Source of the DNA: Anadara kagoshimensis
Lineage: Eukaryota; Mollusca; Bivalvia; Arcoida; Arcidae
Length of the DNA: 64,000 nucleotides
Direction: 5' to 3'
Assembly (NCBI GenBank): GCA_021292105.1
Contig: CM037870.1
Coordinates: 50,222,747 to 50,286,746 of the forward strand
Shown: positions 1 to 32,200 of the stretch, one piece after another
Position numbering within the stretch: position 1 is the first letter of the stretch
Layout: every line of letters starts with the position of its first letter
Translations under genes and position numbers: made by a program
The notes under the pieces: model-generated
What the model was told of the DNA's origin: nothing
What the model saw: only the letters and a program-made list of their open reading frames with translations
Database searches by the model: none

Positions 1-269
1 ATTCACACAAAAAGTGTTTTACCAGTATTTGAGAATAATATTACAGGTGGTTCACAATTTGAGGGAAGAGTTCATAAACATGAGTGATCTTATCAATATA
101 ATCCTTGAAAACTGCACGTTGATGTGTGTATAATCATGGCCTTCTCACATTTTATTTTTACACAAAAAAGAATCACTGTATACAATGCCATATGATTGTG
201 AACAATCTATAATATCTTAACATGACAAGAACAACAATGAACATTCAATACAGATAATTAAAGTCAAAC

Positions 270-470
270 CTTTTATCTGGGATACATTGTCGTTATGAAG
301 AGTTATGTCCATATTTTCTGGACTCTTTACATTCTCCACATTGTTCTTTAGATCAAGCTTTGATTTCTCAGGAAGAACTTTTTTCTCAATTTGTGAACTT
401 TTGTCGATATTTTCAAGAGATTGTTGAACTTTACTTCTGGTAGCATTGGTCATGGACTTGGGATTATCCT
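270..470 (-). CDS. SET gene tail exon, repeat copy 1 (201 bp)
   Basis: This is the last tail exon visible in transcription order. It carries the NVSQIK variant. Its downstream intron runs to the window edge still inside the repeat unit, so more copies or the terminal exon lie outside. Confidence 0.8.
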
Positions 471-3400
471 CTGTAAAACATGTAAAATCATTCAATAAAT
501 GGCATAACACAAATAAAACAGGTGGACAATTTTGAATTATTTTTTTAGTCATTTATAAAAGCCAAATAAGCACTAAATAGTCAATATGTAAAGGTGAACA
601 ACTATTCAAACTTAATCTTACACAAGCATATGCATATTTAAATGAATAAAAACGTATAGGAATATAAGCTATAAAATACAGTGTATGTAGATGTGTGTGT
701 GTCATAGAGTACCATCAGGCTTGTCCTCACAACAATACACAATTATTTTCTATATCAAGTTCATCAATATGGTATGAAGGTCTCTCTTCAATACACACAC
801 TGTGTTAGTTTGAGAGTACACAAAATATGTATCTAACAGAGTACCCTACTACAAACATTAAACACCAAACTTTGGCACAGATGTAATTACAAAGTGTATC
901 CTCTAAAATTCACACAAAATGTGTTTTACCAGTATTTGAGAATAATATTACAGGTGGTTCACAATTTGAGGGAAGAGTTCATAAACATGAGTGATCTTAT
1001 CAATATAATCCTTGAAAACTGCACGTTGATGTGTGTATAATCATGGCCTTCTCACATTTTATTTTTACACAAAAAAGAATCACTGTATACAATGCCATAT
1101 GATTGTGAACAATCTATAATATCTTAACATGACAAGAACAACAATGAACATTCAATACAGATAATTAAAGTCAAACCTTTTATCTGGGATACATTGTCGT
1201 TATGAAGAGTTATGTCCATATTTTCTGGACTCTTTACATTCTCCACATTGTTCTTTAGATCAAGCTTTGATTTCTCGGGAAGAACTTTTTTCTCAATTTG
1301 TGAACTTTTGTCGATATTTTCAAGAGATTGTTGAACTTTACTTCTGGTAGCATTGGTCATGGACTTGGGATTATCCTCTGTAAAACATGTAAAATCATTC
1401 AATAAATGGCATAACACAAATAAAACAGGTGGACAATTTTGAATAATTTTTTTAGTCATTTATAAAAGCCAAATAAGCACTAAATAGTCAATATGTAAAG
1501 GTGAACAACTATTCAAACTTAATCTTACTACACAAGCATATGCATATTTAAAAGAAATAAAAACGTATAGGAATATAAGCTATAAAATACAGTGTATGTA
1601 GATGTGTGTGTGTCATAGAGTACCATCAGGCTTGTCCTCACAACAATACACAATTATTTTCTATATCAAGTTCATCAATATGGTATGAAGGTCTCTCTTC
1701 AATACACACACTGTGTTAGTTTGAGAGTACACAAAATATGTATCTAACAGAGTACCCTACTACAAACATTAAACACCAAACTTTGGCACAGATGTAATTA
1801 CAAAGTGTATCCTCTAAAATTCACACAAAATGTGTTTTACCAGTATTTGAGAATAATATTACAGGTGGTTCACAATTTGAGGGAAGAGTTCATAAACATG
1901 AGTGATCTTATCAATATAATCCTTGAAAACTGCACGTTGATGTGTGTATAATCATGGCCTTCTAACATCTTATTTTTACACAAAAAAGAATCACTGCATA
2001 CAATGCCATAAGATTGTGAACAATCTGTAATATCTTAACATGACAAGAACAACAATGAACATTCAATACAGATAATTAAAGTCAAACCTTTTATCTTGGA
2101 TACATTGTCGTTATGAAGAGTTATGTCCATATTTTCTGGACTCTTTACATTCTCCACATTGTTCTTTAGATCAAGCTTTGATTTCTCGGGAAGAACTTTT
2201 TTCTCAATTTGTGAACTTTTGTCGATATTTTCAAGAGATTGTTGAACTTTACTTCTGGTAGCATTGGTCATGGACTTGGGATTATCCTCTGTAAAACATG
2301 TAAAATCATTCAATAAATGGCATAACACAAATAAAACAGGTGGACAATTTTGAATTATTTTTTTTAGTCATTTATAAAAGCCAAATAAGCACTAAATAGT
2401 CAATATGTAAAGGTGAACAACTATTCAAACTTAATCTTACACAAGCATATGAATATTTAAATGAATAAAAACATATAGGAATATAAGCTATAAAATACAG
2501 TGTATGTAGATGTGTGTGTGTCATAGAGTACCATCAGGCTTGTCCTCACAACAATACACAATTATTTTCTATATCAAGTTCATCAATATGGTATGAAGGT
2601 CTCTCTTCAATACACACACTGTGTTAGTTTGAGAGTACACAAAATATGTATCTAACAGAGTACCCTACTACAAACATTAAACACCAAACTTTGGCACAGA
2701 TGTAATTACAAAGTGTATCCTCTAAAATTCACATAAAATGTGTTTTACCAGTATTTGAGAATAATATTACAGGTGGTTCACAATTTGAGGGAAGAGTTCA
2801 TAAACACGAGTGATCTTATCAATATAATCCTTGAAAACTGCACGTTGATGTGTGTATAATCATGGCCTTCTCACATTTTATTTTTACACAAAAAGAATCA
2901 CTGTATACAATGCCATATGATTGTGAACAATCTATAATATCTTAACATGACAAGAACAACAATGAACATTCAATACAGATAATTAAAGTCAAACCTTTTA
3001 TCTTGGATACATTGTCGTTATGAAGAGTTATGTCCATATTTTCTGGACTCTTTACATTCTCCACATTGTTCTTTAGATCAAGCTTTGATTTCTCGGGAAG
3101 AACTTTTTTCTCAATTTGTGAACTTTTGTCGATATTTTCAAGAGATTGTTGAACTTTACTTCTGGTAGCATTGGTCATGGACTTGGGATTATCCTCTGTA
3201 AAACATGTAAAATCATTCAATAAATGGCATAACACAAATAAAACAGGTGGACAATTTTGAATTATTTTTTTAGTCATTTATAAAAGCCAAATAAGCACTA
3301 AATAGTCAATATGTAAAGGTGAACAACTATTCAAACTTAATCTTACACAAGCATATGCATATTTAAATGAATAAAAACATATAGGAATATAAGCTATAAA

Positions 3401-6400
3401 ATACAGTGTATGTAGATGTGTGTGTGTGTCATAGAGTACCATCAGGCTTGTCCTCACAACAATACACAATTATTTTCTATATCAAGTTCATCAATATGGT
3501 ATGAAGGTCTCTCTTCAATACACACACTGTGTTAGTTTGAGAGTACACAAAATATGTATCTAACAGAGTACCCTACTACAAACATTAAACACCAAACTTT
3601 GGCACAGATGTAATTACAAAGTGTATCCTCTAAAATTCACACAAAATGTGTTTTACCAGTATTTGAGAATAATATTACAGGTGGTTCACAATTTGAGGGA
3701 AGAGTTCATAAACATGAGTGATCTTATCAATATAATCCTTGAAAACTGCACGTTGATGTGTGTATAATCATGGCCTTCTCACATTTTATTTTTACACAAA
3801 AAAGAATCACTGCATACAATGCCATAAGATTGTGAACAATCTGTAATATCTTAACATGACAAGAACAACAATGAACATTCAATACAGATAATTAAAGTCA
3901 AACCTTTTATCTTGGATACATTGTCGTTATGAAGAGTTATGTCCATATTTTCTGGACTCTTTACATTCTCCACATTGTTCTTTAGATCAAGCTTTGATTT
4001 CTCGGGAAGAACTTTTTTCTCAATTTGTGAACTTTTGTCGATATTTTCAAGAGATTGTTGAACTTTACTTCTGGTAGCATTGGTCATGGACTTGGGATTA
4101 TCCTCTGTAAAACATGTAAAATCATTCAATAAATGGCATAACACAAATAAAACAGGTGGACAATTTTGAATTATTTTTTTTAGTCATTTATAAAAGCCAA
4201 ATAAGCACTAAATAGTCAATATGTAAAGGTGAACAACTATTCAAACTTAATCTTACACAAGCATATGCATATTTAAATGAATAAAAACGTATAGGAATAT
4301 AAGCTATAAAATACAGTGTTTGTAGATGTGTGTGTGTCATAGAGTACCATCAGGCTTGTCCTCACAACAATACACAATTATTTTCTATATCAAGTTCATC
4401 AATATGGTATGAAGGTCTCTCTTCAATACACACACTGTGTTAGTTTGAGAGTACACAAAATATGTATCTAACAGAGTACCCTACTACAAACATTAAACAC
4501 CAAACTTTGGCACAGATGTAATTACAAAGTGTATCCTCTAAAATTCACACAAAATGTGTTTTACCAGTATTTGAGAATAATATTACAGGTGGTTCACAAT
4601 TTGAGGGAAGAGTTCATAAACATGAGTGATCTTATCAATATAATCCTTGAAAACTGCACGTTGATGTGTGTATAATCATGGCCTTCTCACATTTTATTTT
4701 TACACAAAAAAGAATCACTGTATACAATGCCATATGATTGTGAACAATCTATAATATCTTAACATGACAAGAACAACAATGAACATTCAATACAGATAAT
4801 TAAAGTCAAACCTTTTATCTTGGATACATTGTCGTTATGAAGAGTTATGTCCATATTTTCTGGACTCTTTACATTCTCCACATTGTTCTTTAGAACTTTT
4901 TTCTCAATTTGTGAACTTTTGTCATTATTTTCAAGAGATTGTTGAACTTTACTTCTGGTAGCATTGGTCATGGACTTGGGATTATCCTCTGTAAAAAGTA
5001 ACAGCATATAAAATGGTATATTGCAAGTCTGATATAAAAAACAAGGTTTCAAAAAACTTGGTGATGTTTATTATGAATTAAATTCCATTTTTAGTAATCA
5101 TTCACTCTCCCATACTGAAAATCAAATCAACAATTAAATTTCAACATGCAAACATAAATAAGTATCTCAATTTGAAAAAAGAACATAACTGATTAAAACA
5201 TTATTAGTATAAGTAATCAACATCTAAGTCTGCCAAAATTTATAACAAGAATCTTTAAAAAAAATCAAACTACATGGAGAGTACCAATATACATGTATGA
5301 CCTACAAAAAAAAAGAATTCAGCTTCGTTTGGAACTTGCTCCTATACAGGTTCTTGAAATAAAAAAAATAAAATAATAAAACAAAATAAAAAAAAATAAA
5401 TAAATAAAAGTTATAACAAAATTTCATGTCTTGAAATGTTTTTAAATGATATAAAATTGAATGATGCAGAGGTTATATTAATTATGCAAGGTAGAATTAT
5501 CTATGTAAATTTAGTTTTACCCCATGATGACTATAAAACTGTACAGCAAAAGGCATGTTTAACTCCACTGAATACAACTAAATGAAATCCGATAAGCTAT
5601 TATTTAAATATGCTATTTTCGACAAAGTTGATAACCTCTAAATACTGTATACGGGGTAATTTTTGAGTTTTGAAATTTTCACGGTTTTTAGTATAAAAAC
5701 CCTCTAAATTATTTTGGCGTTTTTAAAATTCGCGGTTTCTGTAATTTCAAAACTATTTCTTTAGTCTGTGCAATTTCAAATCACAAATTTTATCCTGAAT
5801 ACGGTATAACAAGTTAGACTCATGTGTTATTTATTGACTCCGGAAGCTACAAACGGAAACTAAAATCCAGAAATGAAAACGGTACTTCATAATATTTAAT
5901 ATTTTATTTCATATATAGACACATGTTGCAGACTTAAAATAAATCAAGCAATGAATAAAATCGTCATTAAAAACTGGTATGGAGAGTACAGGGATTGATC
6001 AAGGACCTATTTAGGGCCGAAATTCTGTCCCATTCCCAATGCAAAAGACATAGATTTTTTCCCAAAATGGGCTGAGAAAATTCCCAATTAGAAAAACGTA
6101 CCAGATACATGGCTGAAGTCTGGCCATAAATGTGGCTGCTTTTCTCGATCTTCAATCAACTCAATACACTAAACACTGAAAGCATTAGATTTAATCATTA
6201 ATGGCATCAAATATGATGTCAAAGTTTTCCCAAAATGAGCAAAAAGTTGATAGTTTTTCCCAATTTTTAGTCTAGGGCCTTTTCCCAAAAGACCCTGATA
6301 AATCCCTGGAGTAATGTTAAAACTGTCGATACTACATTTGTTTTGAAATATTTACGCGTTAATTTTTTGTGGTTAAAACGTGACCGCAAAATACCGCGAA

Positions 6401-9400
6401 CATTAGAATACTGCGAACATTACCCATTAAACGGTAGCACATTGTATTAATATCAAACATCTTGATACTGGATTAAAAAATTGCATAGATAATTGCTTTG
6501 CTTTATTAATACCATCTCTTCATTAAATTTTACAAATTATATTTCTTACCAATTTCATTAGAATTTCTAGTTGTTTTCTGAGGAAAAAAGAAGATTAATA
6601 ACAAATAAGACACAGTAAAATGTAAGAACACAAACTAGATGCAAAACTGCCAAGGACATGTTTAAAAAAAATTGTTTTCTACCAATGCACTGTAAAAAAT
6701 AAGGATCAGTAGATAGGCAAAATATTTTATTTAGAAGTATTTATCAAGGGTCTATGGGAAACATATCTTGACTTTATACATGTAATATTTAACAGGACTT
6801 GTTTAAAAATAATAAAAATTTTGGGCAGATACAAAAATTACAGGTATGGAGGGCTAGTAGAAACTCCAGATTTTTTTTTTACATGGCCCAGTGTATTCAT
6901 TGCATCATATCTTTTCGAGTCTGCTCAAAATTTATATGCTTACATGACTTACCTGTTTTTTCTCATGAAACAAGAAAAGACATACAGGAAGGATTTTATT
7001 TTTTACTTATACATAAAATCTTGACCATTGTCATAAATTGGTGAACATTTGTGCTACATCGGGGGTTTAAAGGATAAACAATTCTGTATAACAATTTGTT
7101 GGACACATAAATTTAAACAAATGTGTCCTTTGGGATGCACAAATCCAGTCAATTTGATTGAACTTGGAAAATGTCTGCAAGAACTACAATGATACGACAA
7201 AAAACCGATTTTATAAAACTTCTTAATGTTAGAACTCCTCATGTATACTATAAATGCACCATTGTGTATTAAAAGTGCTTGCAACTTTTTGGAAACAGTT
7301 TGATTGGCTTGTAGTATTATTCAAATTACTTCAGTTCTAAATGTGACATCAACTTAAGTGTCAAGATGGCCAAATGCCTAAGACTAAGTATTCATAGTAT
7401 GATAAAAATTGTACAAACATCATTCTCACCGGATAACATGATTATGATTCTTAAATTATTTCAGCCATGTGACACAGATTTATGAGCCATTTATTTTCTT
7501 ACTAGTGTCCCAAAAACCAACATTTTTGAAAAGTTGTGAAAAACCCTGCTAAGCTGTTTGAATAAACCATGGAACCTGTTTAAATTGGTTATCTGTCAAG
7601 GTTTATGACAGTATGAATTATATCATAACTGATACTTCAACAATACATGTATAATGACTGTATAAATATCACCATTTTAATGGTTACTAATCACCTTTAA
7701 AAAAAAAATCTGTCGTGCAATATAATTCTACATCAGATATCAAATATCACACAACTACAAAAAAATACTAGAAAATATTTGTATTTATACAGCATGTACA
7801 GTATAGCAGAACCTTTCAATATGAATTCAATGTAGCATGAAAATGCCAACTTTAGAGAAGTAAATCTAGGAGGTTTGAGGAATGAAAAGAATAACAAAAC
7901 AGTTCCAGATTTGTTCTATTTGGTCTGGCTAAAACCATCTAGTCCAGTAAAATTCATTTGACTTGTGAAAAAAGGTTTGGAAATCCATTATATTTGCAGC
8001 AGTCTACATCTCTATATAATAATGTGATTCTTTATGGTTAAGAAGACAACACTGTGAACCCATAATATTAAAAATTCACAAACTTATTACCTTTCTCCAC
8101 CAAGAGTTCTCATCCCCATAATCATATAAAATTTCGTCGCCAATGTTTATTTCTTTTGTGGCAAATAAAGCTAAATGCATAGTCCCTTTAACTATAATTT
8201 TCCTCATTTTTGAGTTCTTCTCTGATGGTATATCACTATCATTTACCATTCTTCCCATTCTACTTTTACTGGCATGTGTGGCATCAATACTACAATGAGA
8301 AAAGAAATTACTTAATAATAGATCACGAAAAGTGCACATTTATTATAGTTCAATGAATTGGAGTCAAGTCAAAATAAAAATAGTCATTAAGCGACCACCT
8401 ATGGGAAAGTACAAAAGTGGTCGTTATAGACAGATGGTCTCTTAATACAGATTTGGATAATGTGAACAAGAGTTGTAACCCTGGAGAGTTCAGAGAAATC
8501 AATACAATTGTGGAATAAAAATTAATATTCATGTACTCAGTTAATCGGATTTGGACATGTTGACCACAACAATGACAGTGGTACATGCAGGGGTACATAT
8601 GGGTAACACCACCAAAAATGACAAATCGCAACTTACCTACAAATATGAAACATCAGGAGTGAAACTTATGATCAAAATTAATCAAAATATATTCTATTCT
8701 TAAGCAAAAAGTTTTGTGTCTGTTCAAGACTGCAGCATGAATTGTATTTTAATTTGTTTTCATGAATTACATGTATATAAAAAAACTGCAGATATCACAA
8801 AAGTAAAGTTCTGGAGAAAAAGGCAAAATATACAGCGTTATCATCCATCAGTATGTTTGACACCTCATAGTTTCAGATGACTTTCTTGTTGAATTTTTGA
8901 TACACATGTTGCAGGTGTCATTAACGAGCAAGGAGGCGCTCACTCTTCTTGAGCATCCGGCCTCGCTTCCATACAGAAAGTTCTCATGATTTTGTCATAA
9001 TTACATCAATTTTTGACTAACGAGTCAAATGACACTTAATAAAGGTCTAATAAATTTAACATCATTGATCAAATGACATACAGTCGAACCTGCCTTAAAA
9101 GCAACCTCTATATAAGGGCCACCTTCTTATAAAGTCCGATAATTTGCATCCCAACTCCTCTTTAACCTTGTTGTTTGAACCTGTATATCAAGGCCACCTG
9201 CTCACAAAGGCCATTTTTTAAAGTTCCCTTGGGTGGCCTTTATAGACAGGTTTGACTGTATATATTGCAAGTACAGTACTTGTAATAGATCATTTTATCC
9301 GGGTGAAAATGTATCTGGGAGGATGTAATTTCACAGTAAAATCTATCTGGCAAAATAAATATCATGGTTTATTATGTAAAATATTATCCATGGCTAATAT

Positions 9401-12400
9401 TTATCTATGAAATATTATCCATTTAACTAATTTCACAAGCAAATATTACCCTAAGATAATATTTCATGGGGTATAAAATAAACCCTTACATACTCACCAC
9501 CAAATTTTTTCATTGTGTCTAAAATAAAACATGAAACATCTTGGGTATTTAGATTTATTGTCCTCTTTGTATATTTTCTCCCTTTTCTCTGCTGTATGTG
9601 AATCTACACACTCTCCTACATATTCTAAAAGAAATTCATTCTTCTGAAAGGCCTTCTTGGCAAAAACTCCATATCCTGCAAATAAATTTCACCCAAAACA
9701 GTTAAATTTCTATGAGACCCTATTAGCAATGCTAAATTTATCAAATTACTCAAAACAAAGAGAAACAGATGCTATATTATACTATTTGAATAATAAGATA
9801 TATATGTCACATTCATTATATGATACACAATTTGTCTAATAATATTAAAAGAAACAGAAAACACTACCATGTGTTCTTGAAAAGAAAAGATTTATTAAAT
9901 TGGTTTTATCTTCTTTTGATTTAAAATTTAATGATTGCTAATTCCAATTGCTTATCTTATGACATAATGCACATGAATGATTGGAAATCCTGTATTTTTT
10001 AAATGGCAGTACAGAACTGCTTGATGATTAACATAATTTTGGAACATGATAATGTTAATAATTTGACTAAAACTATTTAATTCAGACTATAAGAAATTAT
10101 TTAAAAACTAGACGAAAGTTGAGTCTGTAAAACTCAATGGATGCCCCAGTGCACCCCTCGATCCTGGAGCATTTCCTCAAAAATACTTTTTGTCGAAAAA
10201 TTTGTCAGAAAAGTATGAATGAATATAAATTTTAAATATATCTATAATGAAAATACATCATATTCTTGCAGTTTATTTTGTCATTTCCTTAGTTTAACAA
10301 ACTCAATTTTCATAATAAAATAAGGCGTTCAACAAAAGGTATTTTCGACGAAATGTCATGGATCTCTTCATCCAAGTGAACCAAATTTTGGAAAAAAATG
10401 TCAAGGTAAAGGGTACATGGTTCATTACAAAGGAATTGGTAGAAATGTTGTAATTTTTCAATGGATTTGCAATTTACCTTACAGGCTATAGTACTTTAAT
10501 TTTAAATATTACATAAAGTTCAATCACATCTTCAATATCAATATGTGCACAATAATAGTGAAGAATTTTAATGTGATTGAAGGGAAACTGTAAGAGGAGC
10601 TGATTATATAAACTGTATACCCTGAATACCCTATAGTAAAGTTTACTGTAATACATGTTGAAAAAGCACAAAAATCAAAACCCAGTAAAATGTGGGAAAT
10701 TTTAGCAATCAATTCTACAATACCACATGCACACCTTCAATTTGTATACTACAAACATGCCAAGTTTCAGAAAGATCAAAAAGAAACTGTAAGAGGAGTT
10801 GATTACACAAAATAAGCACCCAAATGCGGATGGACGGACAGATGGATTGACAGAATGCCAGAGTGATGGATAGATGCAAAACAGAATGCCCCCTGACTAG
10901 TCACTGCAGGGGCACAATAAAAACATGTTGCAAACTTCCAATGCATGCAATATCACCTTTCATGTCATTTATAAACTGAACTGAAAAACCATCTGGATCC
11001 ACATTACATTCCATCCATCTTCTAGCAATATCATCTGGGTTTTGACGTCTTTTAGGCTGAAACTAATAGAAATTGACAAAAATTATAATTGAAAAATAAC
11101 ATCAAGGAAAGTAACCCTTTAATTAAAAGTTTAAGAAGCAAGTGGTTAAAATAAGAGGAAAAGTAGGCTAGCTCACATACCCCCACCTCCCCAACATAAG
11201 CCGATACAATTTGATTTGACTGTTATCTTGGCCTTCAACCTGTACTAAATCTTACACATGACAAATTTTTTAATACTGGTTTATATTTGTATAAAGTTTC
11301 ATCAAAATCCATTTAGAAATGTAAGAGATAGGGACAATGGCAGCTGATATGATTGGCTCAATGAATGAATTAGTAGATTTACTGACAGTAACTTTGAGAT
11401 CCAAACATATACATCACTACAGGCATGTGTCTGATGATGTTACATGTCTGGTCCAGGTGTCTGCCTATGGAAGCATTTTTTAATTCACTTTTTTCATTTT
11501 TTACACTTTAAACTGTAAAATTTACATTTTTTTTTTGTTTGTAAAATTTATACACTTTAATCTGTAAATTTATACTTTTTTCTGTAAAATTTATACACTT
11601 TAATCTTTAAATTTTACACTTTAGTCTGGAAGATTTACACTTTTTTCTGTAAAATTCACACTTTAATCTGTAAATTTTACTTTAATCTGTAAATTTTACA
11701 CTTTTCTTCTAGCCTTCAGGGCAGTATACGTTTTTCTTCTTAACAATACAAAATAAATAACGAAGAAGCCATATAATATATATCTACCTAGTGATTCAGT
11801 GGCAACAATTGACTAGGACCTTACTAATTGCAGAAAACTGACAAATGAACCCCATTGCCATTTCACCCCCAATATCTTTGTACATGTTTGAAAATAAAGT
11901 GTTGCATATGAAAAAGCTATTTGGTTTTAGATGAGACAAATTAAATTTAAAAGTTAATTATTGAAAAGTTAATCTGTAATTGAATTTCTCAAAAAACAAG
12001 TTTTGGCTCACCTGGGCGAAAGGCCATGTGAGCTTATGGCATGGCACTTTCGGAATTTAAAATTGGAGCTAAATAAAGTGTTCCTGGCAAAAAATTATAG
12101 CTCCCAGATAAAATGATAACAAAAATATTTAAGATACAATCTCCAAACTATTGGTATCCAAATGGAAACTAACTGTGACCTTGACCTTTGACTCCATGCC
12201 CTAAACCTATATATCAAAATGGGTAAAAGACTCAATGGGCCGGGTCGTTTATAAAAATCCTGAAATATTTCCATAAAGTCAGTTGCACATCTTCAATATA
12301 TATAGAAACATTCTGTGAAGTTTTAAGGTTTTTGGTTGAAAACTGTAGGATGAGTTAAATTCACAAAGTAGGTACCCTCAGTTCAAAAACTTGCTAAAAA

Positions 12401-15085
12401 AGGACTAAGTTTTAAAGTCTGGAAAAATGGGGAAAAAATCTTGAAATATTTCCATAAAGTCAGGTGCACATCAGACACCAAAAACCTAGATTCTTACCTT
12501 TAACATATTTTAGGTCTGGTGGTCAATTCTCCATCAGGACATATTTATAAATTAGAATATGATTATTGTTACAATAAAAAACACAAGCATAAAAATCAGG
12601 CAAAGAAAAGAAAACTAAGTAGTTAAAACCATTTATATATAATTCCAAAACATCCAAATTGAAGGTGGAGCAAAAGGTACAGGTTTGTGCAAAATCAATG
12701 TTAGAGAGAAAAAAAATAAAACCATATGGTATATCATTTAAATCCATTCTAAAAAAAATAAAAATGTCCTGATTTTATGGCTGTCTATTACATGTCTGCA
12801 TCAAGACAATCTAAACCATTAACCTAAAACAATTAAGAACATTAGACAATTACTGACTTTTGATTAGATACAGAGGTAGACATAAGGATTTGTCAACCTA
12901 AAAAAACCATGACATTTACCTCAGGCTACTGCCTCGATGAATATCATATGTTTCTTTAGGTTAATAAATAGAGATTCTTGTAAATGATTTATTGGAATTT
13001 CATTTTGAGGAAGGGGCATAAAATGTGTAGGTGGGCTGGCAAAATTATACAACCCAATTTTCATTTATCTATATTTCAATTAATAATTATGCTATGGATT
13101 TCCATTACATTTTCACATAATATCCAGCATGACCCATATTTTCAAAATATATTTTCCACAGAGGCAGGATGAGTGAGCCTTGAATATATTGAGTGGTATT
13201 TTTTAAAATAATAGGTTGTTTTTTTTTTTTTTTTAAATTCACACTTAATACATGGTGGATGTTAATATGTTTAATTTCCAAAGGGTTTGTCAAAAGTCAC
13301 AGTAGTTTTGTTGAAATATTGGATTTCGCCGAGTGAATCTTAAAAATTGATTGATATCAAGTGTGTCTATTAAAATTCACAACAAATATGCGGTCGATAT
13401 AAGTTTTAAGTACAAACTTCATCCTGGCTTACAATTATTTATTTCTTCAACATTTGGTAAATTTTAAAGCAGCCATCTGCAGACTTTCGATCAATTTTCC
13501 GGTGAAAATAAAACAAATTGTGCGACAAAAATTGAAATCATTTTTCTACTTTCGGTTTAATGGTAGACAGGTACCTACGCGCAATGAAATAATAGAAGCG
13601 CTTTGTTTATCATTGAAATATTTGCAGACACCTGCCATTACTTCCGGATAAGAAAGATAACATCGCATGCACTATCCTTTTGAACAAAACCATGTGTTGT
13701 TTCATTATCAATTTTTTTTCCCTTCACAAAAGTACCAAATCCCGTTACTAAAAACACATGGAACACTGGTGTAAATTGGGAAAATTCACTAACATTTTTG
13801 GGAAAAGATATACATTTTGGACATTGGGAATGGGGCCGAACTTCGGCCCTAAATTAGCCAGGTCGACGGCCCTGAGATCACCATTTTGGTTTACGCAGAC
13901 GACTGGTACACGAATAGTTGAACCAAATCAAAAAGTGGCACTATACAGATATTTAACCTTAAATCGATCGTTTATTTTTTAAAAAAAATTCTTTTGTTTT
14001 TAATACCAATATTTGCAATGGAAATCAACAGTAACAAGAGAAAAAGGATAACAAACATGATTTTTAGTATGCAGAACATTCCTTTCAAATCCGGAAAGCA
14101 GAATTTCTCTTGGAAAATGGGAAAAATTCCGGGCAATACGGAATGGTTGGCAGCTATGCCGTTACAGTATGTAATAGGAGGAGAAAAAATGCAGGGTCCG
14201 ACTGGGGATTGAACCCCACACTTTAGGCGATGCACTACCAACTGAGCTAACCAGACCCCTATATTCCTCCCATTTTTCTCAAGTTTCCCACGGTCCCGCA
14301 TGTGGGAAATCTCACATTAGCCCACCCTCGGATAGACTTTCAACAATATTGATCACTTCCGAGGGCCACACTGGCCACCAAACTGTAACAGGAGCAGAAA
14401 AAAATGCAGGGTCAGGAGGGGGATCGAACCATGGGAACTCCCTCACTAAGAGACTAAAGGCAAGTGCTCTACCAACTGAGCTACCCAGACAGCTACACAG
14501 TATAATAAAAGGTGTTACAAGCCAGGAAACTACAGGTCTAAAGTTTCCTACGTTCCTATAGTGCAGGAGGCTCGGGTTCGATCCCCGGAACCCCCCCCCT
14601 AACAAACATACTTAAATACATGCCATATATTTCATACAAAATAATATTTGAACATAAATTGTTTTTACCATGTCGTTGATTAAATAACCAAGTCCAAACT
14701 GTGTCTTATTTGGCAACAATACGAGTACAAATCATAAAATGTTGACGGTCTTAAATTGAAAATCTCTCCGATAAGCAAACAATGAAAGTCTATGTAAGCA
14801 TTGTCGGCAAAAAAGGTATAATAAATGGCAATTATCTTTAGAGATATCCACGTGAAATGAAAGAAGATGAGTTTCACAGTATGCTCGCAATTCATCAAAT
14901 TCACGGCAGCTTTTTGTTTCCAAGTAGCCGACAGCTTTTATCCCCGCCATTTTATCATTGTGTGTGTGAATCTGGGGTCTTTTTTAACATCATTTCCTAT
15001 GAAGTGTTGATCAAATGGGTGTACAACTTAAACTTACCTCAACGTTACCATCGCCTCCACCTTTTCTTTTCTGGTTTAGCGCCAT
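270..15085 (-). CDS. KMT5A-like SET-domain lysine methyltransferase with a tandem-exon C-terminal tail (3' end off window)
   Basis: This gene is assembled from eleven exons that join in frame: 15085-15038, 11056-10957, 9675-9498, 8289-8091, 6577-6550, 4988-4812, 4104-3904, 3195-2995, 2288-2088, 1377-1177 and 470-270. The first five encode about 184 residues: a short basic N-terminus, then a SET domain with GYGVFA near residue 50, EYVGE near 70, WCIDATH near 108-114, RMGRMVNDS and ILYDYGD. SET proteins transfer methyl groups from S-adenosylmethionine to lysine. The order and wording of the motifs are closest to KMT5A/SETD8, the histone H4K20 monomethylase, and to its invertebrate relatives. 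The substrate is not known. The remaining six exons add a hydrophilic tail rich in Lys, Asn and Ser, made of 67-residue modules (59 in the first). At least 578 residues are visible and there is no stop in the spliced frame, so the gene continues left of base 1. Confidence is high for the SET part, and good by phase for the tail. Confidence 0.85.
1177..1377 (-). CDS. SET gene tail exon, repeat copy 2 (201 bp)
   Basis: This is the same module with Gln in place of Lys near the end (NVSQIK), a change shared only with copy 1. Splice sites and phase are unchanged. Confidence 0.8.
2088..2288 (-). CDS. SET gene tail exon, repeat copy 3 (201 bp)
   Basis: This copy has the same module, splice sites and phase. 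Its intron carries the gcatac/cataag variants and an extra T in a T-run, both shared only with copy 5. Confidence 0.8.
2995..3195 (-). CDS. SET gene tail exon, repeat copy 4 (201 bp)
   Basis: This copy encodes the same 67-residue module as copy 5, with the same splice sites and phase. The surrounding intron has the gtatac/catatg variants shared with copies 1, 2 and 6. Confidence 0.8.
3904..4104 (-). CDS. SET gene tail exon, repeat copy 5 (201 bp)
   Basis: This symmetric phase 1-1 exon encodes a 67-residue module that runs from EDNPKSMTNATRSKVQQS to ENMDITLHNDNVSKIK. Acceptor (ttttacag) and donor (AAAG|gtttga) are identical in every full copy. The module is lysine- and asparagine-rich, has no cysteine and looks soluble, perhaps disordered. 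I recognise no domain. Confidence 0.8.
4812..4988 (-). CDS. SET gene tail exon, repeat copy 6 (short, 177 bp)
   Basis: This is the first tail exon in transcription order. It matches the other five but lacks 24 bp in frame (the residues PEKSKLDL of the other copies) and has an Ile-to-Asn change in SLENNDKSS. Its upstream intron is unique sequence, unlike the other copies, so it marks the 5' edge of the duplication. Phase is 1-1. Confidence 0.8.
4997..5640. other. Intron, no gene seen
   Basis: AT-rich intron of the SET gene. It has an A-rich simple stretch at about 5360-5410 (runs of A with single T) and nothing else that I can support. Confidence 0.6.
5640..5813. mobile_element. Short inverted-repeat element (MITE-like)
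   Basis: The ends are imperfect inverted copies: tactgtatacggggtaattt at the left and a complement of ttataccgtattcaggat at the right. It is about 174 bp long, has no coding capacity and lies in a SET-gene intron. Confidence 0.5.
5989..6308. mobile_element. hAT-like MITE, 320 bp
   Basis: It begins CAGGGATTGATCA and ends TGATAAATCCCTG, the CAGGG-type ends typical of hAT elements. The interior repeats the phrase 'ttcccaa' and has no transposase. A relative in the opposite orientation lies at about 13760-13860 (shared 'ggccgaa.ttc' and 'cattcccaatg' segments). I see no clear 8 bp target duplication. Confidence 0.6.
6550..6577 (-). CDS. SET gene exon 5, 28 bp linker microexon
   Basis: This very short exon (KTTRNSNEI plus one base) has a good polypyrimidine acceptor (ttttttcctcag) and donor (G|gtaagaaat). 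It enters in phase 0 and leaves in phase 1. That is exactly the shift needed to join the phase-0 SET exon to the phase-1 repeat exons. No family motif supports it, so the evidence is splice sites and phase only. Confidence 0.7.
6578..8090. other. Intron, no gene seen
   Basis: 1.5 kb intron between SET exons 4 and 5. Open frames here have no motif or splice support. No repeat family recognised. Confidence 0.5.
8091..8289 (-). CDS. SET gene exon 4, catalytic half of SET domain
   Basis: The 199 bp exon lies between acceptor ctcattgtag and donor AAAG|gtaataag. It encodes IDATHASKSRMGRMVNDSD, then HLALFATKEINIGDEILYDY and GDENSWWRK. The RMGRMVNDS segment aligns with the canonical R(L/F)(G/I)..INHS motif, but His is replaced by Asp. 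YDYGD carries the catalytic tyrosine region. The exon ends in phase 0. Confidence 0.93.
8910..9000 (+). mobile_element. Small remnant of the dispersed RT element 3' tail
   Basis: The phrase ggaggcgctcactcttcttg then gagcatccggcctcgcttcc is a degenerate match to the shared 3' tail (cttccggagcacccggcctc) seen best at 62950-63040. Confidence 0.5.
9077..9260. mobile_element. GGCCACC-type palindromic MITE
   Basis: The left end cagtcgaacctgccttaaaa and right end ggcctttatagacaggttt + gactgta are inverted copies. The inside iterates 'aggccacc'. Relatives lie at 18366-18510 and 60059-60762, with a fragment near 8375-8455. Confidence 0.7.
9498..9675 (-). CDS. SET gene exon 3, N-terminal half of SET domain
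   Basis: The 178 bp exon lies between acceptor tttgcag and donor gtgagtatg. It encodes YGVFAKKAFQKNEFLLEYVG, then ECVDSHTAEKREKIY and CFMFYFRHNEKIW. The G.GVFA loop is part of the S-adenosylmethionine site, and EY.GE is a standard SET strand. The last two bases join the next exon to make the Cys of WCIDATH. Confidence 0.92.
10105..10920. mobile_element. Dispersed non-coding repeat, ~0.8 kb
   Basis: It starts with actagacgaaagttgagtct and 'aaactcaatggatgcccca' and ends 'ctgcaggggcacaata', with a penultimate 'gatggacggacagatgg' run. This structure (end boxes with 'gcccc', tail with 'gacggac' repeats) resembles a common bivalve repeat. No transposase is present, and it lies in a SET-gene intron. 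Confidence 0.45.
10957..11056 (-). CDS. SET gene exon 2, pre-SET lead-in
   Basis: The 100 bp exon lies between acceptor ttagtttcag and donor G|gtgata. It encodes PKRRQNPDDIARRWMECN followed by VDPDGFSVQFINDMKG. The pattern DDIA..W...VDP.GF.V.FIN is typical of KMT5A-like proteins immediately before the first SET motif. It enters in phase 0 and leaves after one base of a Gly codon. Confidence 0.9.
11510..11710. repeat. AT-rich degenerate tandem repeat (~33 bp period)
   Basis: Variants of 'tacactttaatctgtaaat' recur about six to seven times with variable spacing. Non-coding, intronic. Confidence 0.8.
12001..12480. mobile_element. Dispersed 'gctcacctg' element, single copy
   Basis: It starts ggctcacctgggcgaaaggc and 'catgtgagcttatggca', and contains 'ctgtgaccttgacctttgac'. 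The same end phrases and 'gaccttgacc' block are found around the 145 bp array at 25.0-27.8 kb, so this is probably an unexpanded relative. Confidence 0.6.
12500..13960. other. Intron, no gene seen
   Basis: Part of the long first-to-second-exon intron of the SET gene. It contains a T-run near 13220 and a fragment of the hAT-like MITE family near 13760-13860. No supported exon. Confidence 0.5.
14194..14258 (-). mobile_element. tRNA-like SINE head, copy A
   Basis: Read on the minus strand this has a box A (ttagctcagttgg), a box B (ggttcaatcccc) and matching ends (gggtctgg / cggaccc). It is about 65 nt, too short for a proper anticodon arm, and continues into 'tgcattttttctcc'. I call it the head of a tRNA-derived SINE rather than a tRNA gene. 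Its body extends toward about 13980. Confidence 0.7.
14408..14491 (-). mobile_element. tRNA-like SINE head, copy B
   Basis: Minus strand: gtctgggtagctcagttggt (box A), then tggttcgatcccc (box B), followed by the same 'ctgcatttttt' body as copy A. The 84 nt length with a long variable arm is tRNA(Leu/Ser)-like. A lone box B (gggttcgatccccgg) lies on the plus strand at 14574-14590. Confidence 0.65.
15038..15085 (-). CDS. SET gene exon 1, initiator methionine
   Basis: The start codon is at 15085-15083. Sixteen codons read MALNQKRKGGGDGNVE and stop exactly at a strong donor (GAG|gtaagttt). The next exon begins in phase 0 with PKRRQNPDD, the expected lead-in to this SET family, which supports the start. 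The context (gaaATGGCG) is favourable for initiation. The preceding ~185 bp up to a plus-strand ATG at 15270 would hold the promoter and 5' UTR. Confidence 0.8.
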
Positions 15086-28938: not shown

Positions 28939-29223
28939 TCAGAATTTTGTTAATTCGTCATTTTGAACATTATTCAGATATTCATCATGAGGAACATATC
29001 CTGTGTTTTCAACCCCTCCGCCTTTTCCCGGTGATGATACCGAGTGAATGTTGACTTTATCTTGATAATAATGTTCCTCCTGGTACGGAGCTTTCTTCGT
29101 GAACCCATTCGTTGGAGCAGATGTGTAATCTGTGAAAGGTAAGTCATCAGCATATAGTCCTGTTCTGTCCTCCGGATTTGCCGGTCCCCAGGCTTTTGTT
29201 GGCGAGTTTAATCTGATGCATGT
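28939..29223 (-). CDS. SLC6 gene 1, C-terminal tail exon and stop
   Basis: 285 bp including the stop. The tail starts [20 protein letters not shown]; the SP...WGPA.(P/L)E phrase is shared with gene 2. It contains ENTGY and ends ELTKF, a possible class I PDZ ligand (T-x-F). Acceptor ttttaaaacag. Confidence 0.93.
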   Translation of the reverse strand, partial: TCIRLNSPTKAWGPANPEDRTGLYADDLPFTDYTSAPTNGFTKKAPYQEEHYYQDKVNIHSVSSPGKGGGVENTGYVPHDEYLNNVQNDELTKF

Positions 29224-32200
29224 CTGTTTTAAAAAAAAACACAAGAAGACATGAAATAACGGCTTTTATCGGTAGTTATCGTGGTGTTTTATGAACACAT
29301 TGCAACAAATATTATCAGATTTTGGTTCTTATGGCAAATGTCAAACCAAAATATACTAAAGCCATTTGACAGAGGAAAAACATCGAGCAAAAAAACCAGT
29401 TTGTTTCAAAATCGATAAAAATGACCCAAACACGCGTGACACAACATTTTAGCATACTGGACCTATAGCTAATATCAATACAACAAATGTCTTTATAATA
29501 TGCAGGAACAGCGTTTAGTAAACGTCTTCTATATTTATTTCTAATCATTCAAAAACATCAATCTCCCAAAATGTTAGAAGTAACAACGCAAATAGTTATG
29601 GGTTTTTTCTGCTCACCTGTCCGACGCCGTTCATGCAGGTGTAAACTACGAACCAAACCGGGATCAAGAAAACGACCGCTGCTACCATCAACCATCCCAA
29701 AGCGTTGGCAAAGTCAGGATATCCTTTTAAGGGTTCATATGTTCTGGACTTCATTACAATGATTGTCTGTAGGTAAAACAGTACAAATTAAATACATAAA
29801 CAATCTGGTTAGTTATCAGTTGTCATATGGGTCAGTAAGATATATTCTGAATGGACGCTGTCCATACTAAGAAATTTATTTCTAAACCGGATGGGGTAAT
29901 TGAAAAATAGCCTGAATGGTCGCTGTCTATGCTAAGAAATTTGTAAAGGAGATGGAAGGGAGTCGGAACATGTATCTCAAATATTCTTAATACTTGAACG
30001 GCATTGACATTTTTAGGTATGTCTATTGACCAGTAGGAAATATCTATGTCAAACTTGTAAGAGCGGATATTATTACTAAAGCTGTTTTAAGTTTAGTACT
30101 TAAACGGCCTTTTAGGAATCAAACTCCCGTTCAGTAGTGCTCTGATGGACCAAAATTGATTGTGGAAATATATAAAATTTTGGAATGTTGGAATGTGTTT
30201 TAGAGAAAAACCAAAACGCATTTTCCACATCCAACTAAGGCAATACTTTAAACGACTAAGCAAAGCTTAATTTTTTAGGAGTTTTAAAATTAAAGCAGAA
30301 AATGTCGATGAATAACGAAAAATAATCAAACGATGATTTCAGAGAGTGACAGATATACTCACCAACAGGGCCACTGGTGACAACAATATCCACGTGAGTC
30401 CAAAGTAGATAAAACTGATAGAAATACAAATGTTTGAGCCCAGCATCATCTCAATATCTCGCTTAAATCGGAAAAATCCTAAAATATAATCACTAAAATC
30501 GAAAGTTTCTGTATAATTTATTAAAGAAATGATAGAATTTTGAAAGATGTATAAACTAAATTAAAAACTGTTGGTGTCTTTCTTTTTTTAAAGTGACAAC
30601 TTGGTGTCTTATATCACGAGTTTAATAAAATTGTATTTTATTGCATCAGACAGGGTTAAATTCTCTATTATATATACATTAAGTATATTTTAGAGTGAAA
30701 AACAGAGTAACATTTAATAGAAATTTAAAACAAAACCCACAAACATACCAGTCAATGTCAAAAGCAAAATTAAAACTTTGAAAACTAGCAAATTGATTAA
30801 AGTATATGAACCATAGTGGTGAGACCGAACTACGGAAGGGTACGCATATCCTGTCAGCTAGCTACACAATTCAAAATTTTGAAGCTGCATCAGTCCGAGT
30901 GACGGTGGACAGCAGTTGTTTGTTTCCTTTAAGAATCTTGATGGAAGAAAGTCCCGTAAGTCATACAAACCGTAAATATATATAATGGAGATAAATTCAA
31001 ACAGTCCAATAAAAAGTAATGGGAAGCCACCAACATATGTGTCCTGTACGTTCAGTAGGTAGGATCCACCCTGAAACACAAAGAATTTGATTACAAAAGA
31101 CTTTGTAATAGAAATGGAACTTGGACGTTTCACGATCTAAATTTTTGCTTGACAATACCCAGGTCAACCAGACACCATACCAAAAGTGAAAACATGACAA
31201 GTGGAATGAAGAAAAGAGCGGCCAATGCACGCCATAAGTGGGAACACGAGAAGAGAGCTAGAAAAACCAGGAACACAAAAAGAAAATACAAACCAAATAA
31301 AAATAACAACCAAAGCACAAAAAAGTGAGATCTGTAGGCCTATAACTACATATCTTATACAAAAACATTGAGAAAATATTATTATATACAGTGATATATT
31401 TCTGAAAGTAAACACATTCTAAACCAGTAGACTGAAAACCTACCCGTGTTGCCATTGGTAAACCTAACAGGAACCCGGCCATACAAATTGAAAACCGGAA
31501 CAGTGTAGTCCGAAATTTATTATTCAGCACATCTCTCAACTCATCAACAAGTCCTGTAATTATGGTCTCTACGATGGAAAACTGAGGTAAACATAAATAC
31601 AAAACTCTAATTAATGGTCATATATATATATATATTTAATTTTCTGAATGAAATATTCCATTATTTGTAATATTACAGGCAGTCAGCAGCAAAACGAGTT
31701 TGACTTTTCCGTGTTTTCCAAAATCAAATTAATATTTCTATTACATATATTTCTAAGTACGTATTATAGACTTACATACATACACATAACTCTATATATT
31801 TTAATAATAGCTTTTATTTATCAGGAAAATGGCATTTTGTTGAATTCACAAAAAAACGGAAATAATTTTGAATATTTAAGATTACAAGCATCTTGAAAAA
31901 ATCAACACTAGTACAATGTGTAAAATAAATAATAAATAAGATCACACATTGACCATTGTCTTAAACATTGTATTAGTCAGTAAATCTATAGTTTGACCTC
32001 GAACTAAATGCAACAGAATAGGTGCTCTTGTATACACACAATGTTTATGATAACAAATCTACAAAAATCTGATTAGGGCAAAGCAGTTTTTCGGGGTTTT
32101 AACTTCTTATGGATTTTCTATAGACTAGGAACTCTTGGGTTTTAGTCCCATTATCATTTGGTGTTTTTAGATGTGAACAAAATGTAAAGCAAAGATACTG

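Follow-up and report, generated by a model that had tools for sequence, protein, structure and literature searches.

Here, we analyzed a 64,000-nucleotide stretch of the genome of the bivalve Anadara kagoshimensis (the window; assembly GCA_021292105.1, contig CM037870.1, C14:50222747-50286746; GC content 30-37%), in which a minus-strand gene with a KMT5A-like SET domain carries an array of near-identical exons and continues, to the left of the window, into a recombinase-like part. The genome searched comprised 1.115 Gb in 36 contigs. The full locus model is one gene of 20 exons and 1452 amino acids, running from an ATG to a stop codon with GT-AG at all borders. Its parts follow one another as a KMT5A-like SET domain, seven modules, a C2H2-type zinc-finger pattern, acidic exons, a recombinase-like part and a basic last exon. 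The portion inside the window (exons 1-5 and six modules) forms an open frame of 580 amino acids with no stop.

All exons of the model lie on the minus strand. Exon 1 (15038..15085, 48 bp) holds the ATG and ends in phase 0; it is matched in L013 and L014, two partial copies elsewhere in the genome. Exon 2 (10957..11062, 106 bp) leads from phase 0 to 1. Exon 3 (9498..9675, 178 bp, phase 1 to 2) encodes the first half of the SET domain, and exon 4 (8091..8289, 199 bp, phase 2 to 0) the second half, with the motifs NDS, YDYGD and WWRK. The domain occupies residues 52-169 of 1452 and matches PF00856 (E 3.2e-18), and the best 14 of its 103 PDB matches are all KMT5A/SETD8 (E 8.1e-25 to 1.1e-22), which bears out the KMT5A-type assignment made in a preliminary description of this DNA. 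Canonical KMT5A has NHS where this gene has NDS. Among the named proteins matched, the closest comes from the scallop Mizuhopecten (49%). Exon 5 (6550..6577, 28 bp) had been proposed to turn phase 0 into phase 1 and so to join the SET domain to the array, and an in silico frame test agrees: across the first 19 exons (before the last exon, x7) the frame read has 0 stops and the other two have 108 and 163, and omission of exon 5 closes the frame with 97 stops.

The in-window part of the seven-unit tandem array spans positions 1..4988, and the left end of the array lies about 0.7 kb outside the window. Its module exons are M1 (4812..4988, 177 bp) and, at 201 bp each, M2 (3904..4104), M3 (2995..3195), M4 (2088..2288), M5 (1177..1377) and M6 (270..470); M3 and M4 equal M2 in sequence. 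We could re-derive the six units reported earlier, with one exon each (five of 201 bp and one of 177 bp), intact splice sites and phase 1-1, at a spacing of 907-911 bp. The number of in-frame modules, given before as six or more, is seven: M7 lies just left of the window at -630..-430 and is base for base the same as M2, M3 and M4. Every module exon has AG/GT borders, is open in one frame and encodes a hydrophilic module of 59 or 67 residues, in which the share of order-promoting residues is 0.23, versus 0.33 in the SET and x4-x6 parts. Gaps aside, the units are more than 98% identical in both exons and introns. Since all seven exons are copies of one, their common phase counts as one observation rather than six, and identity at this level is evidence of recent duplication, not of selection.

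The array had been described as a C-terminal tail; this part did not hold, as about 805 residues continue beyond it. M7, zf1 and x1-x7 extend from window position -430 down to -13607 (C14:50209139-50222316). The exons zf1 (78 bp), x1 (90 bp), x2 (129 bp) and x3 (114 bp) are all phase 1-1 and are followed by x4 (1285 bp), x5 (280 bp), x6 (196 bp) and x7 (245 bp, with the stop), the last being attached to the model by frame and splice site alone. As the preliminary description had it, modules can be removed without a frameshift: in silico, the frame stays open without M1, without M4, without M2-M7 or without all seven, and likewise without any one of zf1, x1, x2 and x3. Because M1 through x3 are all symmetric exons, the array can be regarded as linking the SET domain to the C-terminal half of the protein.

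We then examined the C-terminal half. An x4-x6 query gave at least 78 listed matches in the genome (best 75 of 268 candidates scored), many of them in groups of equal score and many open for more than 1.7 kb without an intron. Six intronless paralogs were scanned, and in four of them the top Pfam match was PF00589, phage integrase (E 5.6e-6, 3e-5, 9.3e-4 and 3.1e-3), with all scores below the curated cut-off (best 26.7 versus 27.1 bits). For a profile built from eight copies, the tyrosine recombinase XerA was the best match in PDB (E 0.0085). In the alignments, G-K, T-x-L-R-K, G-H-D, H-R and Y-R-L are invariant and R-x-G-E occurs in most covering rows; by eye, the window gene keeps all these motifs and the aligned R, K, R, H and Y positions. 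Compared with PHROG, its C-terminal part gave only weak matches of unknown function. In the mobile family described below, a segment downstream of the recombinase (L055, 4281-4568) is weakly Myb/SANT-like (PF00249, E 0.0039, below the cut-off); x7, which likewise follows the recombinase part in the window gene, has no Pfam or family match in the domain scan.

The two halves of the gene recur together in the genome. Using a SET query (best 150 of 352 candidates scored), we found SET and recombinase matches paired upstream to downstream, on one strand and within 25 kb, at 41 of the 72 listed recombinase loci, the window gene included; with the strand flipped or the direction reversed, the pairs numbered 2 and 1, respectively. 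The other 31 loci have no upstream SET match among those listed. Exon-3 copies at 62.0-62.1 bits lie on many contigs (at least 33 rows), with the second SET exon about 1 kb off in 32 of 33. Two copies of this family, hereafter family 1, lie on C2 and C7; aligned over 8.3 kb, they show 0 mismatches and 16 gap positions. They diverge at the left end inside an (AT)n tract, and the right side of the C7 copy meets an assembly gap. A 601-base left-end query gave 35 long matches including its own place, the other 34 beginning at query positions 26-72, within the AT-rich run. A segment lying about 23-24 kb away, toward the right end, recurs whole or nearly whole at no fewer than 34 places (24 with the full 1085 bits) and partially at two more (best 40 of 542 candidates). 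Each of the 35 left ends is accompanied by this right segment on its own strand and less than 40 kb away; in 31 cases the distance is 22.9-29.9 kb. Family 1 reads as an element of 23 kb or more, dispersed in about 35 near-identical copies, with a KMT5A-like SET gene, a tyrosine-recombinase-like domain and one common end beside (AT)n; its length is a lower bound, as the mapped extent stops short of the true right end. Copies run from C2:42802594 to beyond C2:42826634 and from C3:43739112 to beyond C3:43763200 (L039, L041, L043, L053 and L055). A Helentron nature of family 1 was considered and not adopted, its basis being literature precedent; no search for Rep/helicase was made.

The intron positions after x4 and x5 are common to family 1 and the window gene (by eye). 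The continuous protein P0003, whose contig measures no more than 1442 bases, aligns with three exons of one family 1 copy at 97-98.5% and runs from exon 4 directly into another coding exon; being continuous, it probably derives from a spliced transcript of this species or a near one. For the window gene, there were no dispersed copies with common ends among the matches scored, and no search aimed at its element ends was made. From these comparisons, the window gene is best read as belonging, in low copy number, to a family of SET-zinc finger-recombinase genes that appears to be partly mobile here. Two more SET-recombinase loci (C6:2419916-2435888 and C14:2761394-2778860) have near-equal scores and the same break after x4; they are 42-58% identical in the C-terminal part and are the nearest low-copy relatives among the matches scored.

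Next, we asked where the array came from. A module query of the whole genome found 15 places, namely the seven array copies and eight single copies at C14 66.5-66.6 Mb, C14 69.3-69.4 Mb and C10 32.9 Mb. Five of the eight single copies are damaged (donor changed in L012, frame shifted in L014 and L015, L016 and L017 cut short), and frame and borders are intact in L010, L011 and L013. As the single copies are of the 201-bp type, the 177 bp of M1 represents an in-frame loss of 24 bp (relative to L010-L015). Homology between units ends 8 bp upstream of the start of M1 and about 60 bp downstream of M7. The array introns differ from one another by 0.1-1.6% and from the single-copy flanks by about 2-5%, which indicates that the module had spread before the array formed. 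The units carry private substitutions and indels, including the 24 bp absent in M1 and 14 bp absent in intron 6. Three marker bases are common to introns I2 and I4, against I1, I3, I5 and I6, and this pattern is a putative trace of a two-unit duplication. On the best reading, an exon that elsewhere occurs singly would have been duplicated in tandem here, and recently, to give the array. In other species, no module homolog was found at E up to 0.001, nor at E up to 1 when residues 170-330 were used as the query against candidates of 319-1015 amino acids.

The module exon differs from the single copies more than its surroundings do. Against L010-L012, which are near-identical and together amount to about one comparison, it is 10-12% diverged and the adjoining introns 1.7-4.5% (Fisher p 0.004 to 7e-8 by unit); against L013 the values are 8.5-10% and 0-4.6% (p 0.007-0.02), and against the short L016 and L017 they are 12-13% and about 2% (p 0.0005-0.003). 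With L014 and L015 (5-8%), the excess does not reach significance, and exons 1, 2, 4, zf1 and x1 show no significant excess over introns in comparison with the single copies. Array-specific changes fall in 13 codons, altering the residue in 9 and leaving it unaltered in 4, and the ratio of nonsynonymous to synonymous substitution rates (dN/dS) of M4 versus six single copies is about 0.5-0.85; given these values, we make no claim of positive selection on the module. The exon excess would fit conversion from a diverged copy as well as fast evolution of a disordered linker.

Relatives of the SET domain in other species were also compared. Among 18 relatives with a W-R/K motif behind YDYG, 17 have ND and one, P0008, has NHG (by regular expressions; P0053 by eye); among those lacking the motif, 32 have NHS, and P0033 and P0043 have ND. 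For the 16 relatives with a tail of at least 60 amino acids, the self-similarity of the tail was compared with 20 shuffles. It exceeded all 20 in nine, two of which are acidic low-complexity tails (P0031 and P0042), and was more than twice the best shuffle in five: P0005 of Fundulus, P0008 of Ptychodera, P0036 of Carassius, and P0039 and P0040 of Apostichopus. The earlier remark that no KMT5A relative with this design was known therefore needs revision, since strong tail repeats are present in these five. With repeat-bearing tails in a sea cucumber, fish and an acorn worm, tandem repeats behind a KMT5A-type SET domain probably arose more than once, with unrelated sequences. Exon x4 is matched downstream by two of six relatives tried, P0004 of Capitella and P0020 of Hydra (tblastn 8e-13 and 1e-11). 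Both carry an N-terminal SET domain, so that SET and x4 occur together in single predicted proteins of two other phyla. Three fish proteins, P0006, P0034 and P0053, combine the same N-terminal SET with a protein-kinase domain (P0034 and P0053 from precomputed domains).

From these findings, we favor a reading that we consider quite probable: the locus would be a minus-strand SET-module array-zinc finger-recombinase gene whose array was amplified here, whose C-terminal half is Crypton-like and whose array serves as a spacer or docking site. Several points weigh against it. The His of NHS matters in KMT5A, and changing it may alter activity; with NDS instead of NHS, methyltransferase activity is not assured. 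The length ranges searched yielded no transcript or protein of the gene with the modules, and the module copies are too similar for a selection test within the array. The zinc fingers are C2H2-type pattern matches alone. Regarding the recombinase, two of the six paralogs scanned have no PF00589 match, and the window gene's own C-terminal part has none in Pfam, among PHROG integrases, in NCBIfam or to a recombinase in PDB; furthermore, only R, R and Y of the R-H-R-Y tetrad are kept, the His being Thr in 8 of 8 aligned members (by eye).

One alternative is that the array is not coding at all. If it were a decaying or non-coding amplification, transcripts would end after the SET exons or skip the array, and the modules would drift. 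Short relatives that end soon after SET do exist (P0002 and P0007), exons are about as diverged as introns between units, the module donors AAG|GTTTGA look weaker than those of exons 1-5 (by eye), and damage has befallen most of the single copies. However, splice borders and frame are kept in all seven copies, the 24-bp difference of M1 is in frame, and the exons on either side fit a phase 1-1 insert only, and we regard decay as improbable. More improbable still is an assembly artefact that turned one or two real modules into seven units. The small differences between unit introns would suit such an artefact, 0.1-1.6% being within the range of heterozygosity in bivalves; against it stand the private substitutions and indels among the units, the differing outer flanks of M1 and M7, and the presence of all seven units in one run without N. 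Finally, the gene might not be a resident of the host genome but itself an element that can still move, which we find doubtful. It keeps most of the catalytic-looking recombinase residues, relatives with the same intron positions are mobile, and there are partial copies on C14 and C10. However, among the 15 module places and the SET candidates scored, a single copy has the array together with all SET exons, and the partial copies L013-L015 lack exon 3 and have only 64 of the 199 bases of exon 4.

Under the favored reading of a resident fusion gene, the C-terminal half would be a putative DNA-binding recombinase inherited from a Crypton-like element, which may carry the SET domain to DNA or chromatin; there, the substrates of the methyltransferase would be histones close by or the complex itself. 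Between the two halves, the modules would act as a flexible spacer or as a series of docking sites. Because M1 to x3 are all phase 1-1, unequal crossing-over or exon skipping could lengthen or shorten this spacer without a frameshift, and its length, not a new catalytic function, is most likely the thing that varies. If so, the array would be a natural linker-length series between two enzymatic halves, in exons that can be lost or gained without a frameshift.

A larger finding than the array is that it connects one half resembling a methyltransferase with another resembling a recombinase, and that some members of this gene family were recently mobile. A broader proposal, on which our judgment is evenly balanced, is that animal genomes harbor a class of large tyrosine-recombinase elements (23 kb or more) whose main gene combines a KMT5A-type histone methyltransferase with a recombinase. 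Their spread would explain the expansion of KMT5A-like genes with N-terminal SET domains in hydrozoans, the sea urchin and probably a mollusc, and the window gene would be a resident member whose linker grew through the sevenfold amplification of one symmetric exon. If this is true, a recombinase with its own chromatin-modifying enzyme would make it possible to test directly how target chromatin is prepared or silenced by mobile DNA, and the puzzling "H4K20 methyltransferase" expansion from a developmental paper would become a mobile-element story.

As to the surroundings of the gene, SLC6 neurotransmitter-transporter-like pieces flank the locus at window positions 28939-29787 (minus strand) and at C14:50196900-50203000 (by eye).

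Several known systems resemble parts of this gene. A literature search on Crypton or tyrosine recombinase together with SET or KMT5A, in open-access text without Repbase reports, gave no title on a SET-tyrosine-recombinase fusion among the matches listed (best 15 of 525 in one listing). The likeness to KMT5A/SETD8 (PR-Set7, the H4K20 monomethyltransferase) is that of the SET domain, which in the window gene is N-terminal, whereas in KMT5A it is at the C-terminal end; NDS for NHS, the WWRK motif and the long downstream part are further differences. KMT5A-like genes number up to 65 in Hydractinia, 24 in Hydra and 61 in the sea urchin (PMC10368294). Those of Hydractinia and the sea urchin mostly have an N-terminal SET, longer genes among them have similar C-terminal ends, conserved from one of these animals to the other, and some are activated early in embryos (PMC10368294). 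As far as these descriptions go, the window gene is alike in its N-terminal SET and long conserved C-terminal part; the section of that paper on KMT5A-like genes names no recombinase domain, mobility or tandem exon array. In a sea cucumber, the candidate sex-determining region is reported to hold two male-biased kmt5a copies (PMC9128100).

Cryptons are eukaryotic tyrosine-recombinase transposons with known cases of domestication, including DUF3504 genes (PMC3212892). The window family is also eukaryotic, with a part that resembles a tyrosine recombinase, but here that part follows a SET domain; in the main text of that paper, "SET domain" and "methyltransferase" have 0 occurrences. The SET-carrying Helentrons of Phytophthora (PMC4067079) are likewise mobile elements with a SET domain. 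As described there, however, a Clr4-like SET is a separate gene in a Rep/helicase element, unlike here. With regard to the array, the sea cucumber proteins P0039 and P0040 have five and three tandem 36-residue repeats, respectively, directly behind SET, the repeat sequence being unrelated to the module. The coding variable number tandem repeat LPA KIV-2, as presented in PMC12776774, also consists of tandem in-frame coding units able to give a size ladder; its units are kringle domains, and variation between people is established there, whereas a single assembly was analyzed here. With coding tandem-exon arrays in general, the window array shares in-frame tandem copies of symmetric phase.

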